NCBI GenBank assembly: GCA_013151235.1
Contig: JAADIO010000042.1
Location: 1 to 42,506 of the forward strand
DNA length: 42,506 bases
From: Deltaproteobacteria bacterium
GTDB lineage: Bacteria; CG2-30-53-67
Reading direction: 5' to 3'
The position numbers were made by a program, and so were the translations under genes. Shown in pieces: positions 5,129 through 40,385 of the stretch; the stretch's first letter is position 1; each line of letters starts with the position of its first letter. Below the pieces are notes generated by a model. It had not been told where the DNA came from. It saw only the letters and a list, made by a program, of their open reading frames with translations, and searched no databases.

Positions 5129-5256
5129 TCCGTTTTTGTCCCGGGGGATTTCAGGCTTCCGCTTTTCATGATATTCTCCTGTTTTGACATGAAAGCGGCT
5201 TGACAACGGGGGGCGGCTCCTGTTAATTTTCCACAGAATTTTATCGGGAGAATTTT

Positions 5257-6366
5257 ATGTCTGAGGAGCAAAATCCGTATCTTTCAGGCCGCCCCATTGC
5301 ACCGGACGGGATCGACGGATCGGAAACCGTTGCCGATCTCGTAGACCGAACCTTTCTGGCCTACAATGCAGGACGTCTCCGGGAGGCCTGCCGTCTTTTG
5401 AACGAAAAGATCCTGGCCGATGATGTCACGGTCGGTTTGAGCCTTTCCGGGGCGCTGACGCCGGCCGGGCTGGGGCGCTCCTGCATCATCCCCTGGATCG
5501 AGATGGGCTTTGTCGACTGGATCGTCTCTACCGGAGCGAACCTGTATCACGATACCCACTTCGGGATCGGTCTCGATCTGCACCGGGGAACGCCTTTCGT
5601 TGATGATACACGTCTCCGGGAAAAGGAGGTCGTCCGGATTTACGACATCCTCTTCTCTTTCGACGTACTCCTGCGGACGGACAAGTTTTTCTACGAAATC
5701 CTCTCCCTTCCTGAATTCCAGAAGGAGATGGGCACGGCGGAACTTCACTACCTGATCGGGAAATATGTCTCCGAGCGGGAGCGGGCACTCGGTCTCGGCA
5801 CGGTGAGTCTTCTTTCGGCGGCCTATCAGCAGGGGGTCCCCGTTTTCACCTCCTCGCCGGGGGACTCCTCCATCGGGATGAACATCGCCGCCCTCAACAT
5901 GAAGGGGATCGGTCCGAGGATCGATTCCTCCCTGGATGTGAACGAGACGACGGCCATCATCTATCATGCCAAGAAGACCGGCCTCAAAAATGGGCTGGTG
6001 ATGATGGGGGGCGGATCCCCGAAGAACTTCGTGTTGCAGACGGAGCCGCAGATTCAGGAGATCTTCGGGCTTCAGGAATCCGGTCACGACTACTTCCTGC
6101 AGGTGACCGATGCGCGTCCCGATACGGGGGGGCTCTCCGGCGCCACCCCTTCCGAGGCGGTCTCCTGGGGCAAGGTTGATCCCGACCGGCTTCCCGATTC
6201 GGTCGTAGCCTATCTCGATACGACCGTTGCCCTTCCGATTCTGACCGCCTATGTCCATGCCCGTCATGAAAAGAGGTCCTTCCGGCGTCTCTATGACCGG
6301 CGGGAGGAGATGCTTGCCTACCTCAAAAAGGATCTGCCGGAGAAGTTCCAGTCCCAGCTGTATTGA
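5257..6366 (+). CDS. Deoxyhypusine synthase-like NAD-dependent aminobutyl transferase
   Basis: The 369-residue protein is a full-length member of the deoxyhypusine synthase family. That family uses NAD to cleave spermidine and moves the aminobutyl group through a lysine imine. The signature [14 protein letters not shown] is present with the imine-forming lysine at K306 (equivalent to SWGK in the eukaryotic enzyme). The NAD-site segments [11 protein letters not shown] and [11 protein letters not shown] are also clear. Bacteria lack eIF5A, so the acceptor is probably a free amine, giving homospermidine or a guanidino-polyamine, and not a protein. No other polyamine gene is adjacent. The start ATG follows a GGGAGAATTTT site. 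Family is certain; the exact product is inferred. Confidence 0.88.
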
Positions 6367-6412
6367 GGTCTCCGGGGAAACGGGAAAGAGGCAAAGTCAA
6401 AGGAGAAAAGTA

Positions 6413-6448
6413 ATGACCATGGTGGAAGCACACCCTTCCGGCGGGTGA
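6413..6448 (+). CDS. Possible 11-residue leader-like ORF
   Basis: A strong ribosome site (AAAGGAGAAAAGTA) is followed by ATG and 11 codons (MTMVEAHPSGG) ending in TGA. The stop lies in the loop of the strong hairpin at 6429-6462. It follows the deoxyhypusine-synthase-like gene by 46 bp and reads into no further plus-strand gene. It may be a remnant of a lost downstream gene or a chance arrangement. There is no direct evidence of translation. Confidence 0.25.
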   Translation: MTMVEAHPSGG

Positions 6449-6469
6449 GCCGGAAGGATGTGCGGTTTT
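6429..6469 (+). terminator. Hairpin terminator between convergent genes
   Basis: The arms CACACCCTTCCGGC (6429-6442) and GCCGGAAGGATGTG (6449-6462) pair over 14 bp with one mismatch around a 6-nt loop. CGGTTTTC follows. It sits between the end of the plus-strand deoxyhypusine-synthase-like gene and the convergent end of acs. The T-run is short, so termination strength is uncertain. Confidence 0.65.
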
Positions 6470-6479
6470 CGGAGAGGGA

Positions 6480-8444
6480 TCAGTCCGCCATGGCCTTCCG
6501 GTCTGCAATCAGGGTCTTGAGTACGTTCGGATCGGCCAGGGTGGAGGTATCGCCCAACTGGTCGATTTCGAGGCTTGCGATCTTCCTGAGGATGCGCCGC
6601 ATGATTTTTCCGCTTCTTGTCTTCGGAAGGGCCGGGGCCCAGTGAATCACATCGGGTGTGGCGATGGGGCCGATCTCCTTCCGGACCAGTTGCACCAATT
6701 CCTTCTTCAATTCTTCCGTCGGTTTCTCACCGTCATTCAGCGTCACATAGGCATAGATCCCCTGTCCCTTGATGTCATGGGGAAAGCCGACGACGGCCGC
6801 TTCAGCGACAACCCGGTGGAGTACCAGGGCCGATTCAACCTCGGCAGTGCCGATCCGATGACCGGAGACGTTGATGACATCGTCCACCCGTCCGGTGATC
6901 CAGTAGTCGCCATCGGCATCTCTTCGGGCACCGTCACCGGTCAGATAGTAGCCGGGATAGGCGGCAAAATAGGTGTCAAAGAAACGCTGCTGATCCCCGA
7001 AAACCCCCCGCATCATTCCGGGCCAGGGCTGTTTGATTGCGAGCAGACCGCTTGCTTCCCCTTCTAATTCGTTCCCTTCCTGATCGAGAATCACAGGTGC
7101 GACGCCGAAGAAGGGACGGTTCGCCGATCCCGGTTTCAGCTCCATTGCGCCGGGGAGGGGGGTGATGAGAATCCCTCCGGTTTCGGTCTGCCACCAGGTG
7201 TCGACGATGGGGCATCTCCCTTTGCCGACCTTGTCGTGGTACCAGAGCCATGCCTCCGGATTGATCGGTTCTCCGACCGTACCGAGCAGCCTGAGACTGG
7301 TCAGCTTGTTGTTCTCAAGATGTTTTTCTCCCTGCCGGATAATGGCCCGGATGGCCGTTGGAGCGGTATAGAAGATCGAGACCCGGTAACGGTCGACGAC
7401 ATCCCAGAATCGGCTCCAGGTTGGATAGTTCGGCACACTTTCAAAGACGATGGAGGTTGCCCCGTTGGCGAGCGGACCGTAGACGATATAACTGTGCCCT
7501 GTGATCCAGCCGATATCGGCGGTACACCAGTAGATGTCTTCTTCCCTCAGGTCGAAGATTATTTCATGGCTGTAACTGGTATAGACGAGATAGCCGCCGG
7601 TGGTATGCATGACCCCTTTCGGCTTGCCCGTGGATCCGGAGGTGTAGAGAATGAAGAGCGGATCTTCGGCGTCCATCTCTTCCGGCGGGCAATCGTCGGA
7701 GATGTCCTGTGCAGCGATTTCCTCTTCCCACCAGAGGTCCCGGCCTTCCTTCATCTCGGCGGAATGTTTTCCGGAGCGGTTGACGACGATGCAGGTGCGG
7801 ATCCCGTCGCACCGGGCCATGGCGGTGTCGGTATTTTTCTTCAGCGGGATCACCTTGGTGCCGCGATATCCTACATCGGAGGTGATCATCATGACGGCGC
7901 CGCAATCGATGACACGGTCCCGGATGGCGTCGGGGCTGAAGCCTCCGAAGATCACGCTGTGGATCGCACCGATTCGGGCGCAGGCGAGCATTGCCACGGC
8001 CAGTTCCGGAATCATCGGAAGGTAGATCGTGACGCGGTCCCCCTTGCGGATGCCCCGTTTTTTCAGGACGTTGGCGAAGCGGCAGACCTCGCGGTGCAGT
8101 TCGGTATAGGTGATTTTACGGGTCTGTGACGGATCGTCTCCTTCCCAGATCAGGGCGACCTTGTCTTTCCGGGGCCCCTTGAGGTGACGATCAAGGCAGT
8201 TGTAACTGACGTTGAGTTTGCCGCCGGTAAAAAAACCTATTTTTGCATTTACGAAATCGGAGTCGGTGACCTTGTCCCATTTTCGGAACCAGTCGAGACG
8301 TTCCGCTACCTTTCCCCAGAAACCGTCGGGATTCCGGATCGATTCTTCATACATCATTTCGTATTGTTGAGCATTGACGTGAGCTTTTGAGGCAAAGGCC
8401 TCGGGTACCGGGAATCTGTTTCTCGCAGCGGTGACATCACTCAT
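6480..8444 (-). CDS. acs: Acetyl-CoA synthetase (AMP-forming)
   Basis: This 654-residue ANL-superfamily ligase activates acetate to acetyl-AMP and then acetyl-CoA in the cytoplasm. Visible motifs are the phosphate-binding loop [18 protein letters not shown], the adenylate-site [10 protein letters not shown], the hinge region [19 protein letters not shown], and the C-terminal SGKIMRR with K613. K613 is the lysine usually acetylated to switch off the enzyme. Full length matches the family. I chose the start MSDVTAARN (8444), preceded by AAAGGAGAGAGCCGCT, over an upstream start at 8528 whose extra residues are unlike Acs. It is convergent with the deoxyhypusine-synthase-like gene. It would let the cell use acetate as carbon and feed the TCA segment encoded at 29-38 kb. 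Confidence 0.97.
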
Positions 8445-24279: not shown

Positions 24280-24309
24280 TTGACATTTTCTATGCAGGAC
24301 ATATATGAT
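24280..24309 (+). promoter_or_regulatory. Sigma-70 promoter for fchA-folD
   Basis: Perfect TTGACA (24280-24285), an 18-bp spacer and TATGAT (24304-24309) lie about 55 bp before the fchA ATG. The surrounding DNA is AT-rich. Confidence 0.75.
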
Positions 24310-24363: not shown

Positions 24364-24996
24364 ATGTACCTCGCAAAGCCGATGGAACACTACATCGATA
24401 AGCTGGCCTCGAAATCACCCGAACCGGGCGGGGGGAGCGCTGCGGCCCTCGTGGGGAGTGTCGGCGCGGCCTTGGTGAGCATGGTCGGCAACCTGACACT
24501 GGGGAAAGAAAAGTACCGGGACGTCCAGGGACGGATTGAAGAACTCCTTGCCGGGAGTGAAGCGGTACGGTCCGAACTACAGCGCCTGGTTCAGGAAGAT
24601 ACGGAGGCTTTTTCGGCCGTTTCCGAGGCCTACAAGCTACCGAAAGGGACGGACGAAGAGAAGAAAGCCCGTTCCGAGAAGATCCAGGAGGGACTGAAAG
24701 GCGCCGCCACGGAGGTTCCCTTTCAGATCTGTGAGAAATCCCTCAAGGTGGCCCGTCTCAGCAAGATCGCCGCGGAGATCGGAAACGTCCAGGCCGTGAG
24801 TGATGCCGGCGTGGCAGTACTCTTTGCCGATGCCTGTGCCCAGGCGGCGGCGATGAACGTCCGGATCAACCTGAATTCGATTCGTGATGAATCTTTCAAT
24901 AAAGCAAAATGGGACCGTGTGCAGGAGGTCCTTCAGGAGATGGAGCGGCTTCGGGAAGAAGTTGTCGCAATGACCTATCAGAAAATCCGTTCATAG
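24364..24996 (+). CDS. fchA: Methenyltetrahydrofolate cyclohydrolase (formiminotransferase-cyclodeaminase family)
   Basis: The 210-residue protein matches the FTCD/FchA fold: EPGGGSAAALVGSVGAALVSMVGNLTLGK at the N-terminus (given in full only as EPGGGSAAALVG), then EVPFQICEKSL and VSDAGVAVLFADACAQAAAMN. It opens 5,10-methenyl-THF to 10-formyl-THF. Length is right for a stand-alone cyclohydrolase. The start follows AGGAGAAAAGGGA. It is 17 bp upstream of folD and shares its promoter. Because the adjacent FolD lacks cyclohydrolase residues, this protein probably supplies that activity. Confidence 0.88.
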   Translation: MYLAKPMEHYIDKLASKSPEPGGGSAAALVGSVGAALVSMVGNLTLGKEKYRDVQGRIEELLAGSEAVRSELQRLVQEDTEAFSAVSEAYKLPKGTDEEKKARSEKIQEGLKGAATEVPFQICEKSLKVARLSKIAAEIGNVQAVSDAGVAVLFADACAQAAAMNVRINLNSIRDESFNKAKWDRVQEVLQEMERLREEVVAMTYQKIRS

Positions 24997-25013
24997 TTAC
25001 GAGGGAGGGAAAA

Positions 25014-25928
25014 ATGTCAGCAAGAGTGATCGATTGCGTAGCCATTGCCAATGAAATCAAGGACGAAATCAAAAAGGAAGTGGAAACCCTGAAAGGGAAG
25101 GGGATTACCCCCGGAATCGCCACGCTTCTTGTGGGGGACAACTTCGGCGCCCGGATGTACCGGGGGCAGGTGGAGAAGTTCTGCGGCGAGGTCGGTTTCA
25201 ATTACATCAACGCCAATCCCGCGGCCGATGCCACCGAGGCGGACGTTATGGGGATCGTAAAGGAGCTGAACGAGGATGACAAGGTGAGCGGCATCCTTCC
25301 GCTTCGCCCCTTCCCGGAGCAGATTGCCGATACGGTTGTGATCAACAGCATTGATGTGAACAAGGATATCGACTGCTTCCATCCTTACAATATGGGCAAA
25401 CTCGCCCTCGGTGAGACCACCTTTCCGCCGGCGACCCCTGCCGCCTGCATTGAAATTCTGGAACGGGAAGGGCTCAACTTCACCGGGGCCGAGATCGTCG
25501 TGGTCGGTCACAGCAACATCGTCGGTAAACCGGCCATGCTCCTGGCCCTCAACCGGAACGCCACCACCACCAACGTCCATGTTTTCACCGCCCAGGCCGG
25601 AAATTCCGACAAGCATACCCTGGGAGCCGATGTCCTGATCGTCGGCGCCGGCGTCCCCAACCTGATCAGGAAGCACCAGGTCAAGGCGGGAGCGATCGTC
25701 ATCGATGTCGGGATCAACCGGGTGAAGGTCCTCGATGAGAAGGGCGAACCGGTCCTGAACGACAAGGGGAAACCGAAGACCAAGACCGTGGGCGATGTCG
25801 CCTTCGACGAGGTCTGCGAAGTCGCCTCGGCCATTAGTCCCGTACCCGGCGGCGTCGGCGCCGTGACCAACATGATGCTCATGAAGAACGCCCTGAAGGC
25901 GTGCAAGATCCAGCACAAAATCGACTGA
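25014..25928 (+). CDS. folD: Methylenetetrahydrofolate dehydrogenase (FolD), apparently without cyclohydrolase site
   Basis: The 304-residue protein aligns end to end with FolD: PGIATLLVGDN, KDIDCFHPYNMGKL, VVVGHSNIVGKPAMLLAL, GAIVIDVGINRVK and PVPGGVGAVT. It oxidises methylene-THF to methenyl-THF. Bifunctional FolD has a Lys in the YVxxK motif and a Gln in GILVQLPLP. Here these positions are Val53 (MYRGQVEKF) and Leu97 (GILPLRPFP), while Asp120 of the KDID motif remains. The cyclohydrolase centre therefore looks lost and the protein is probably a dehydrogenase only. An insert (GEPVLNDKGKPKTKT) lengthens it by about 15 residues. I chose ATG 25014, preceded by GAGGGAGGGAAAA. A terminator follows. 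Confidence 0.92.
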   Translation: MSARVIDCVAIANEIKDEIKKEVETLKGKGITPGIATLLVGDNFGARMYRGQVEKFCGEVGFNYINANPAADATEADVMGIVKELNEDDKVSGILPLRPFPEQIADTVVINSIDVNKDIDCFHPYNMGKLALGETTFPPATPAACIEILEREGLNFTGAEIVVVGHSNIVGKPAMLLALNRNATTTNVHVFTAQAGNSDKHTLGADVLIVGAGVPNLIRKHQVKAGAIVIDVGINRVKVLDEKGEPVLNDKGKPKTKTVGDVAFDEVCEVASAISPVPGGVGAVTNMMLMKNALKACKIQHKID

Positions 25929-25948
25929 AGGTGCTGACGTCATCAGAA

Positions 25949-25990
25949 TAAAAAAACCGCCGGACCCGTGAAGGAGACGGCGGTTTTTTT
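25949..25990. terminator. Bidirectional rho-independent terminator
   Basis: AAAAAAACCGCCG and CGGCGGTTTTTTT pair over about 12 bp around a 15-nt loop. It has a T-run on the plus strand for folD and an A-run that serves the minus-strand subtilase gene, which ends at 26086. Confidence 0.9.
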
Positions 25991-26085
25991 GTAACTACCC
26001 GCCGAGGGAGGAGAATTCCGGTCGGTTGCAGGAATGCCGGAAGATGCAGGGCGAAGTTCTGCGCCGTCGGAAATGCTCTGAATCA

Positions 26086-28290
26086 TCAATGAACTTGCCG
26101 GACACTCGATTCTTTCCCAACGTCATGATCGCGGATTGGCTTTGATATCCGGAACAGACTCACGCCTCCCAAGGCAACGAGGAACCCGGCAAAAAACACC
26201 TTCCAGGAAATGCCGCTCTTTACCATCAAGGATCCGAAAAGAAAGAGAGGGAAAAGCAGAATTCGGGCAACCGCTCGCAGGAGGGGATGTGCGGCAATCA
26301 CTGCAGCGAAAGGCGGGCTGTAGCGGTAATAGAGGCGGACGAAGAGACGCCCTGCGGAGTTGGTCAGAAGGTATCGGTCCCGGAAACGGCGCAGGGTCCG
26401 GACATGGGGTTCCAACTGGGAGCCGTAAGCGGCGGTGGCGATAAAGCAGTTGCCCGTCACCTTTCCACTACCCGCCGAAGAGACTTTGATCGTCCCGGAT
26501 GTTCCGGAGAAGCCCCGGACGTCGGAGACGGTGACCGTGGTGCTTCCTCCGGATTTTCCGGTGGCGACCCCGCTTGCGGCATCGACCGTCAGGACGGTCG
26601 GGTCGCTGCTTGTAAAGGTATAGGGAGCGGTTCCGCCGGTTGCGGTAAGGGTCGTGGTTTCATTTTGCGAAAGGGACGTGGCGGCGGCGGTGACGGTGAT
26701 CTCCTCGACGTAGATCGTTCCCGAGGTGTAGGCCCCGTTATTGGCGGAGACGGTGCAGGAACCGGCCCCTTTTGCGGTAAAAAGGCCGTTGGCGTTAATG
26801 GTTCCCACGCTTGCATTGCTCGTACTCCAGTTGACGGCGGTGGCGCCGTCGAGGGTGAACTGACGGGTTTCGGCTTTGAGGAGTGACGTACCGTAGGGGA
26901 CGACAACGATCCGGCTGTACAGAGCCGCCGCCGCATTGAGCCTTCCGCCCGATGTTGTAAAGTCGGTAATATTCGTGTCGGAAACCGTGTCGACGCTGTC
27001 CAGGATCCGGGCCTTGATCCGGTCGGGCGTTAAGCTCGGGTCGTTGGTCAGGAGAAGACCGGCGGTGCCTGTGACAAAGGCGGCGGCCTGGGAGGTCCCG
27101 TCCTTCCAGTAGTAATCTTTCGTATTGTCGGGCTGGTTGGCCGGGGCATCGCCGACGATGAAGGTGCTGTAGATCAGTTCTCCCGGTGCTGCGAGATCAA
27201 CATCGCGGGCGCTCACGGCGGCCTTGGTGCCGGTACCGAAATCGGCCAGGTTGTCATCGGGGTCGGTGGCCGTGACGGAGAGGATATTGTCGAGATTGAA
27301 TTTTGCCGGGTATTCCACGGTCGCGGTGTTCCCCGCAGCGGCAACGACGAGGAGACCGTTGTCCCGGGCATCCTTGATGGAATCGTAAAGGGCCTGGCTG
27401 AAACTGGTGAGCCCCCAACTGGCATTGATGATCTTCGCTCCGTTGTTGATGGCATATTCGACGGCGAGGACGATCTTGTCGACCGGACCCACGCCGTCGG
27501 TATTGAGAACCTTGAGGATCATGAGCGAGACATTCCAGTTGATCCCGGCGACGCCGATGCCGTTGTTTCCTTCCGCGCCGATGATCCCGGCGATATGGGT
27601 GCCGTGATCATTGGTATTGCTTCCGACACTGAGATTGTCATCGTTGGGATCGTTGTCGTCATTGATGAAGTCCCACCCCTGACGGTCATCGATGTATCTA
27701 TTGCCGTCGTCATCCTTCCCGTTTGAGGCGATTTCACCCGTATTGATCCAGAGTTGATTAGCGAGGTCGGGATGGTTCAGATCCATTCCCGTGTCGAGGA
27801 TGGCGATCACCGTGTCGGTGGTCCCGGTGACGATACTCCATGCCTCCGGGGCGTCAATGTCGTCACCGGATGTGCCGGTTGTGCTGCCGGTCCCGATCGT
27901 CTGTCCCGTATTGTACAGGCCCCACTGTTGTTGCCATTTCTTCTGCGCGGCGGAACTCGTCTTTTCGTTGGGAAAGGTCGCTGCCAGGGCATGGACGAGA
28001 TAGTTCGGCTCGGCATAAAGGACATCGGGATCGCTTCGGAATTTTTGGAGTGCCTCTTCAACGGTGGTCCCTTCGGGAAGACGGACATGATGCAGGTTCA
28101 GCCGACGGGAACCGTCAAGACTTTCGACCCCCTTTATGCTCAGGGACCGGGCCACGGCCGAAGCGGAGACGGAAGCTTTGTATCGGACCAGGAGTTCTCC
28201 CGGCACGTAAGGACTTTCCGCGTACAACCTGTTCGGAAGGGGGGAGAAGAGAAAGAGACAGACAAGAAAGAAGAGACTCCATTTTTTCAT
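26086..28290 (-). CDS. Exported S8 subtilisin-like protease with Ig-like (BIG2) domains and CFI-box C-terminus
   Basis: The 734-residue protein has a signal peptide ([19 protein letters not shown]) and a propeptide-type segment ([11 protein letters not shown], then [12 protein letters not shown]). The S8 catalytic domain carries the triad Asp in [13 protein letters not shown], His in NDHGTHIAG and Ser in [12 protein letters not shown], plus Asn in VAAAGN. Two Ig-like group-2 repeats follow (about residues 445-600). The C-terminus has a [20 protein letters not shown] motif, recognised as the CFI-box C-terminal domain of Desulfobacterota and related bacteria. Hydrophobic segments ([14 protein letters not shown] and [15 protein letters not shown]) come after it. 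The tail suggests surface anchoring or sorting, but its role is not established. Start ATG 28290 was preferred over 28341 because of the signal peptide. Confidence 0.92.
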
Positions 28291-28584
28291 GAGAGGGACC
28301 CCTTGTAGATATGTGCCACCCGGTTTTTCAGAAGGTATCAAGTGTGCTCTGATACAGTCAATAGAAAACTTTCGCTAAAAAGAACTTGACTCCATTTTTC
28401 ACCGATGTTACCGTGAGCAACACTTTTGCAGTATCTATCTTCTAAGGCAGAAATCCTCACGAATCTGCATCTCCTTCATCTCTAACTTTCAAGGTCCATC
28501 CAAATCCATTTCAAGGGGGTGATCCAACTTTTATCAGCCACCGTCCGCTTTTACATGAATGATTTTTCAAAAGGAGAAAAGAAG

Positions 28585-39335: not shown

Positions 39336-39452
39336 GTTCAAAATAATTCATTTTAGCAGAATCGGTTGGACGCAGACAACCAAAATTGACATCGGTCCGA
39401 TTATGGTCTACCCTCAACGGAAAATGATTCAATGCTTTTCGGGGGAGGAGCG

Positions 39453-40385
39453 ATGAACAAGACCGGCCTGATCATTTCAGGGTACCATCATGACACGGGG
39501 GTTCATCCGGAACGTGCGGAGAGACTTCGTGCCGTTGAAGAGGTCTGCCGTTCCGATGATATTGCACCCCGCCTGCTCCGGTTGGAGCCCAGGGCTGCCA
39601 CGGTAGGCGAGCTGGCCCGGGTCCATGATCGTGATTATATCTTGCAGGTGGAAGAGGCATGCAAAGGAGGGATCCATGCCCTCGATGCGGACACGATGAT
39701 CTCAAGCGCTTCTTATGAAGAGGCCTGCCGGGCGGCGGGGTCCGGGCTGACGCTCCTCGATGCCATGATGGCGGGACTGGTGCGAAACGGTTTCTGTGCC
39801 GTACGTCCCCCGGGGCATCATGCGGAACACGATCGGGCCATGGGTTTCTGTCTTTTTAATAATGTAGCAGTCACCGCCCGGTATGCTCAGGAGAGGCACG
39901 GCCTGAAGAATATCCTCATTGTCGATTGGGACGTGCATCATGGAAATGGAACGCAGAACAGTTTTTATGCCGATCCCTCGGTCTTCTACTTCAGTATTCA
40001 TCAATATCCCCACTATCCGGGGAGCGGTGCCGACGACCAGCGGGGGAAGGGAGAGGGGGAGGGGAGAACGCTGAATGTTCCTCTCCCGGCCGGGGGAGAT
40101 GACAAGGTCTACCGGGAGTCATTGGTCAACAATCTCATGCCGGAGATTGAGGGATTTGCCCCCGATCTGATTCTGGTTTCAGCCGGTTTTGATGCCCACA
40201 TGGATGATCCCCTTGCCGGGATGAATGTAACCGATGAGGGGTTCGGGTGGATGACGGAGTTTCTGGTCGATCTGGCCGGGGAGCATTGCGGGGGGCGTCT
40301 CCTTTCCTTGCTGGAAGGGGGATACAGTCTTTCCGGGCTCAAAGGGGCGGTGCGAATGCATCTGCGGGCACTGGTGAAAGTGTGA
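39453..40385 (+). CDS. Histone deacetylase family (AcuC/HDAC-like) zinc hydrolase
   Basis: The 310-residue protein has the arginase-deacetylase fold. Motifs are YHHDTGVHPERAERL, the active-site PPGHHAEHDRAMGFCLFNN, zinc ligands in VDWDVHHGNGT and SAGFDAHMDDPL, and LLEGGYSL. Bacterial members remove acetyl groups from small amines, polyamines or proteins. ATG 39453 follows GGGGGAGGAGCG. It might act on acetyl-polyamines given the deoxyhypusine-synthase-like enzyme elsewhere in the window, but that is speculation. Confidence 0.92.
   Translation: MNKTGLIISGYHHDTGVHPERAERLRAVEEVCRSDDIAPRLLRLEPRAATVGELARVHDRDYILQVEEACKGGIHALDADTMISSASYEEACRAAGSGLTLLDAMMAGLVRNGFCAVRPPGHHAEHDRAMGFCLFNNVAVTARYAQERHGLKNILIVDWDVHHGNGTQNSFYADPSVFYFSIHQYPHYPGSGADDQRGKGEGEGRTLNVPLPAGGDDKVYRESLVNNLMPEIEGFAPDLILVSAGFDAHMDDPLAGMNVTDEGFGWMTEFLVDLAGEHCGGRLLSLLEGGYSLSGLKGAVRMHLRALVKV

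Follow-up and report, generated by a model that had tools for sequence, protein, structure and literature searches.

The question raised by this locus is whether a FolD that has lost the residues of its cyclohydrolase centre still catalyses both folate steps, or whether the second step is left to the product of the gene beside it. In the window, which is the whole 42,506 nucleotide stretch of deltaproteobacterial DNA analysed here, an intact fchA of 210 aa (24364–24996, + strand) lies immediately 5' of an intact folD of 304 aa (25014–25928, + strand). The two genes are separated by the 17 bp of 24997–25013, as the preliminary description of this DNA had it, and a ribosome-binding site, GGGAGGG, can be read from the sequence inside this gap (25003–25009, + strand). 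The same description had placed both genes under one promoter. A consensus scan identified a near-perfect σ70-type promoter-like site approximately 55 bp 5' of fchA, TTGACA-18-TATGAT, with 11 of 12 matches (24280–24309, + strand). On the 3' side of folD there is an intrinsic-terminator-like hairpin followed by T residues (25948–25992, + strand; RNA fold −24.2 kcal/mol, z −4.98), which has a large inner loop that puts it outside the terminator pattern scan and which was detected by RNA folding. The genes to either side are on the opposite strand and are unrelated, encoding a MinD/ParA-like NTPase and a subtilase. The pair looks like a simple bicistronic unit of putative promoter, fchA, folD and terminator. 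The claim of a shared promoter stands as far as the position of these signals is concerned, and co-transcription is still a prediction from them.

The folD product has the domains PF00763 and PF02882 over its full length, which places it in the FolD/MTHFD fold family, and is 38% identical to E. coli FolD. Its AlphaFold2 model has a mean pLDDT of 93.5 and the best PDB matches of the model are all FolD/MTHFD proteins, among them E. coli FolD, human MTHFD1, and human MTHFD2, with TM of about 0.9. The model thus shows the FolD fold to be intact. HMMER aligns Tyr50, Lys54, Gln98, and Asp121 of E. coli FolD (1b0a) with Tyr49, Val53, Leu97, and Asp120. The place of the catalytic Lys of the YVxxK motif is therefore taken by Val53 (codon GTG, 25170–25172, + strand) and that of the Gln of GILVQLPLP by Leu97 (codon CTT, 25302–25304, + strand), which agrees with the replacements first read by eye, and the Asp120 codon (25371–25373, + strand) is kept. 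There is no gap across either motif, in this protein or in any of its relatives, so the alignment of residues 53 and 97 is not in doubt. Lys55 was considered as a displaced catalytic Lys54 and was rejected, as it aligns with a separate basic residue at canonical position 56, where Lys or Arg is found in 127 of 137 Lys-keeping FolDs. The dehydrogenase-side motifs are retained, also as described: Tyr49, Asp120, and the NAD(P)-binding motifs are conserved across the subfamily to which the window FolD belongs, and from these a retained dehydrogenase activity is predicted. Residue 166 (GHSNIVGKP), in the NAD(P)-binding loop, is His in the window FolD and throughout its subfamily where most FolDs have Arg; a change in coenzyme preference is possible.

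The functions of the two lost residues can be judged from carolacton-selected mutants of E. coli FolD. Cyclohydrolase activity is undetectable in the K54N mutant, with dehydrogenase activity at approximately 19%, and the Q98H mutant has approximately 1% cyclohydrolase and 8% dehydrogenase activity (PMC5688156). In E. coli, both positions are required for the cyclohydrolase and are not strictly required for the dehydrogenase. A FolD that lacks both would accordingly be expected to have no cyclohydrolase activity. These mutations cut the dehydrogenase too, however, which is the counterpoint to a split of the activities. Since either loss alone weakens the E. coli dehydrogenase, compensating changes elsewhere in the window FolD must be assumed to have adjusted its own.

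The upstream gene encodes a stand-alone FTCD_C domain (PF04961, E 8.6e-66), for which the best PDB match is the methenyltetrahydrofolate cyclohydrolase 7vg4 (E 1.9e-48). In the FTCD_C tree this protein (P0002) groups with the Methylobacterium extorquens FchA, 7vg4, and with 38 of the 41 folD-adjacent FTCD_C proteins, the SH-aLRT value of the grouping with 7vg4 being 87 where 95 is taken as strong. Its score against the NCBIfam FchA equivalog NF045657 is 234 bits, under the cut-off of 275. None of the ORFs of the window was identified as a histidine-degradation (hut) gene. On the evidence of the tree and of its surroundings, the upstream gene is probably fchA and its product a methenyl-THF cyclohydrolase. 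Outside of the FchA branch, cyclohydrolases and cyclodeaminases do not come cleanly apart in the tree. Some of the spirochaete and clostridial FolDs that have lost the Lys and kept the Gln have a partner FTCD_C in a mixed branch, which also holds cyclodeaminases of histidine degradation; family position alone therefore does not decide function.

The source genome (2.62 Mb, 99% complete) has a single FolD, a single FTCD_C protein, and a single Fhs. Another of its contigs, C39, carries a CODH/ACS cluster made up of acsD, acsC, acsB, CODH, a NuoF-like subunit, Fhs, and an AcsV-like protein. With Fhs and this cluster in the genome, the fchA-folD pair serves a Wood-Ljungdahl organism. It is proposed that the two-gene operon splits the two activities of FolD, a reading to which a probability of roughly 90% is given. 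FolD, with Val53 and Leu97, would act as a dehydrogenase only, interconverting 5,10-methylene-THF and 5,10-methenyl-THF with NAD(P), and FchA would interconvert 5,10-methenyl-THF and 10-formyl-THF. The two enzymes, joined by Fhs and CODH/ACS, would make up the methyl branch of the Wood-Ljungdahl pathway and supply one-carbon units. Acquisition of FchA may have relaxed selection on the cyclohydrolase site of FolD, or favoured its loss.

The preliminary description had raised the question of whether the residue losses track with fchA. This was surveyed in 79 genomes of Clostridia, 60 of Spirochaetota, and 61 of Actinomycetota. In Clostridia, 27 genomes carry an FTCD_C gene, and of these 26 have lost the Lys and 23 the Gln; neither residue is lost in any of the 50 genomes that are without the gene, and the Tyr and Asp are retained in all 77. 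Spirochaetota without FTCD_C have both Lys and Gln intact in 39 of 39 FolDs. Among the 17 Spirochaetota genomes with a free-standing FTCD_C, the Lys is lost in 13, the Gln is changed to Glu in two (G136 and G141), and both residues are intact in two (G130 and G121). Actinomycetota FolDs adjacent to FTCD_C have lost the Lys in every case (16/16), and both residues are kept in 35 of 36 FolDs from genomes without FTCD_C. In four actinobacterial genomes with several FolDs (G171, G174, G189, and G204), it is the copy beside FTCD_C that has lost the Lys, and a paralogue at a distance from it has both Lys and Gln intact. With the three groups pooled, the Lys is lost in 31 of 31 FolDs adjacent to a gene of the FchA family, and Lys and Gln are kept in 124 of 125 FolDs from genomes without the family (P = 7e-32, a descriptive value only, which ignores shared ancestry). 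Loss of the Lys thus tracks almost perfectly with FchA, at 31/31 against 1/125, and judged by these sequence counts the double loss is not a matter of chance. The one exception among the 125 is an actinobacterial FolD paralogue without the Lys (G213b, L359 in G213), in the genome of which no FTCD_C was found.

The exceptions in the other direction have a context of their own. In the clostridial genome in which the Lys is kept, G018, the FTCD_C gene is beside glutamate formiminotransferase and HutD. The FTCD_C of G136 is clustered with formiminotransferase, urocanase, and Fhs, and the ORFs at the G141 locus follow the same order. The neighbour of FTCD_C in G130 and G121 is an amidohydrolase, identified by Pfam as an amidohydrolase only and read here as HutI-like. 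Four of these five FTCD_C proteins are in the branch of rat FTCD, and that of G018 is on a separate branch. The most likely interpretation of these apparent exceptions is that they are histidine-degradation cyclodeaminases, or proteins grouping with these, rather than FchA.

Divergent FolDs were also seen. Six extra actinobacterial FolDs (L356, L357, L359, L297, L300, and L303) are without the Lys and the Gln and have in addition Asp121 changed to Glu. Three from Spirochaetota (L264, L265, and L266) have the same Asp121 to Glu change with Gln98 altered or the N-terminal motif missing, and are from genomes with long FTCD_C proteins. In Atribacterota, five FolDs (L037, L040, L043, L050, and L052) have Lys54 changed to Ile with Gln98 kept, and a gene of the FchA family is present, non-adjacent, in 5 of 5 genomes.

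The window FolD belongs to a distinct subfamily. When 84,980 species genomes were scanned with this protein, 29 loci were found at 63–95% identity, followed by a gap down to 42% or less. Judged by record title, these close loci are from Nitrospirae, Spirochaetota, Bacillota, and Actinomycetota, and fchA is directly upstream of folD in all 28 that include the 5' side. All of the assessable FolDs have the motifs MYRx[QA][VI]EK and G[IM][LI]PLRPFP, with Val or Ile at position 53 and Leu at 97, and the only NCBIfam models that proteins of the subfamily match are those called 'bifunctional FolD'. In the actinobacterial relatives, fchA-folD is found inside the arrangement fhs-RACo-cooC-fchA-folD-acsD-cooS-acsB-acsC. 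Among 8 genomes of the phylum of the window, a sister family at 44–45% identity has the same loss of Lys and Gln, with fchA adjacent where the contig allows. This sister family, of the same class as the window (L058 and L059, in G006 and G007), is from genomes with neither Fhs nor ACS, therefore the split does not depend on acetogenesis.

The partners of these FolDs are not constant. In the Bacillota loci L011, L012, and L015 to L018 (approximately 5200–6930 of each), FolD is 72–75% identical to that of the window and FchA only 38–41%; L013 and L014 are outside this set, being from Nitrospirae and Spirochaetes. Those of the Bacillota partner FchAs that were placed on the tree fall in the clostridial FchA branch. 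On this placement, FolD and FchA lineages exchange partners, which suggests that the two are paired by function and have not co-evolved as a complex.

Three other explanations of the locus have to be weighed against a division of the two activities. FolD may still be bifunctional, with the cyclohydrolase carried out by other residues, for example Lys55 or a new Arg98, and FchA only adding capacity. All members of the window subfamily have Arg98, which is also frequent among the clostridial Lys-lost FolDs, and the methenyl-to-formyl step can be spontaneous in E. coli mutants (PMC5688156). The basic residue aligned with Lys55 is, however, present in canonical FolDs too, and a retained activity would not require that loss of the Lys track a cyclohydrolase-family gene, as it does. 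Continued bifunctionality is very unlikely. The opposite possibility, that FolD is without both activities or is a non-catalytic partner or subunit of FchA, draws on the finding that E. coli FolD mutated at one or other of the two sites also loses most of its dehydrogenase activity (PMC5688156). This is the sole FolD of a genome with a Wood-Ljungdahl pathway, however, its Tyr49, Asp120, and NAD(P)-binding motifs are kept across the subfamily, and the exchange of partners at the Bacillota loci speaks against a tight co-evolved complex, which makes an inactive FolD the least credible of the three.

The remaining alternative concerns the neighbour, which could be a formimino-THF cyclodeaminase of histidine degradation, in which case the residue losses in FolD would be unrelated to it. 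Such enzymes are of the same Pfam family, PF04961, and the sub-threshold NCBIfam score of P0002 would be in keeping with this. It is nevertheless very unlikely, since P0002 groups apart from the context-defined cyclodeaminases, the absence of histidine-degradation genes from the window ORFs extends to the scanned ORFs of related loci, and the FolDs of genomes in which FTCD_C lies among hut genes have retained the Lys. All that the division of labour suggested in the preliminary description predicts at the level of sequence was borne out, and it is supported by the single FolD and single FchA of the genome, by the E. coli mutants, and by the tracking of Lys loss with FchA, from which the activities themselves are predicted.

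How often the loss arose was addressed with a tree of 134 FolDs, for which the two motifs were removed from the alignment. The best tree has five changes of the Lys state, with the window subfamily (SH-aLRT 98) among Lys-bearing FolDs. AU tests do not reject a tree in which the window FolDs form one clade with the clostridial Lys-lost FolDs (p 0.54), nor one in which all Lys-lost FolDs do so (p 0.55), and convergence as a firm claim was dropped because these tests allow a single clade. The association of Lys loss with FchA is not independent of phylogeny: the phylogenetically independent pairs number four on the whole tree and two on its well-supported branches, which is too few to be informative. 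The differing residue patterns and FTCD_C branches hint at more than one loss event. The chances are judged to be about even that the Lys was lost several times independently, each time after gain of a free cyclohydrolase of the FTCD_C family, that the state of FolD residue 54 marks FchA near-deterministically throughout bacteria, and that changes of the Lys to Val, Ile, or Ala with the Gln lost, and to Ile, Ala, or Gln with the Gln kept, go with different FTCD_C branches.

A division between FolD and FchA has a precedent. In Clostridium perfringens, FolD is reportedly the dehydrogenase and FchA the cyclohydrolase, both being needed to replace the FolD of E. coli. Compared by description rather than by residues, the two systems share, with the activities predicted for the window, a monofunctional FolD, FchA for the cyclohydrolase step, and the presence of Fhs; they differ in that C. 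perfringens is of another organism group and that the window FolD is, by its motif signature MYRxQ[VI]EK / GI[LI]PLRPFP, of a separate subfamily. A FolD without Lys54 in a genome that has FchA, which is the pattern of an FchA-associated monofunctional FolD of this type, is what is found here. The reference list of PMC7219735 includes a study of C. perfringens FolD and FchA (Aluri et al. 2016, Microbiology 162:145). Adjacent fchA and folD are likewise found in Wood-Ljungdahl organisms as part of the fhs-fchA-folD clusters of the acetogens C. autoethanogenum (PMC9618320) and Tepidanaerobacter acetatoxydans (PMC3584212), whereas the pair in the window stands alone, with fhs and CODH/ACS on another contig. 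The canonical bifunctional proteins (E. coli 1b0a, human MTHFD1 and MTHFD2) have the same fold and dehydrogenase motifs, yet the window FolD is without counterparts of Lys54 and Gln98 and, compared with the E. coli protein, carries extra residues inserted after the IDVGINR motif. In M. extorquens, as in the window, the dehydrogenase and the FchA-family cyclohydrolase are separate proteins. The M. extorquens dehydrogenase, MtdA, is of another family and is not a FolD.

The split between FolD and FchA is therefore already known from C. perfringens, and the new elements are the subfamily and how widely the rule that relates residue 54 to FchA holds. Among open papers, none was found that states this rule or describes the subfamily. 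The NCBIfam label of 'bifunctional FolD' misstates the predicted chemistry of the subfamily. Presence or absence of Lys54, read together with FchA, would make monofunctional FolDs recognisable from sequence, which helps metabolic models of Wood-Ljungdahl organisms. The FolD and FchA pairs can also be seen as a natural experiment on the loss of one activity from a two-step enzyme in the presence of a dedicated one.

Three other genes of the window encode proteins of note. The subtilase gene (26086–28341, − strand) encodes a fervidolysin-like prodomain and a Big_2 domain, and the C-terminus of the protein has a short motif followed by hydrophobic and basic stretches, presumably akin to a C-terminal sorting tail. 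The ORF at 5257–6366 (+ strand) encodes a bacterial protein that has the domain of deoxyhypusine synthase (PF01916, E 3e-68), and that at 39432–40385 (+ strand) a protein of the histone-deacetylase family (PF00850, E 1e-97).
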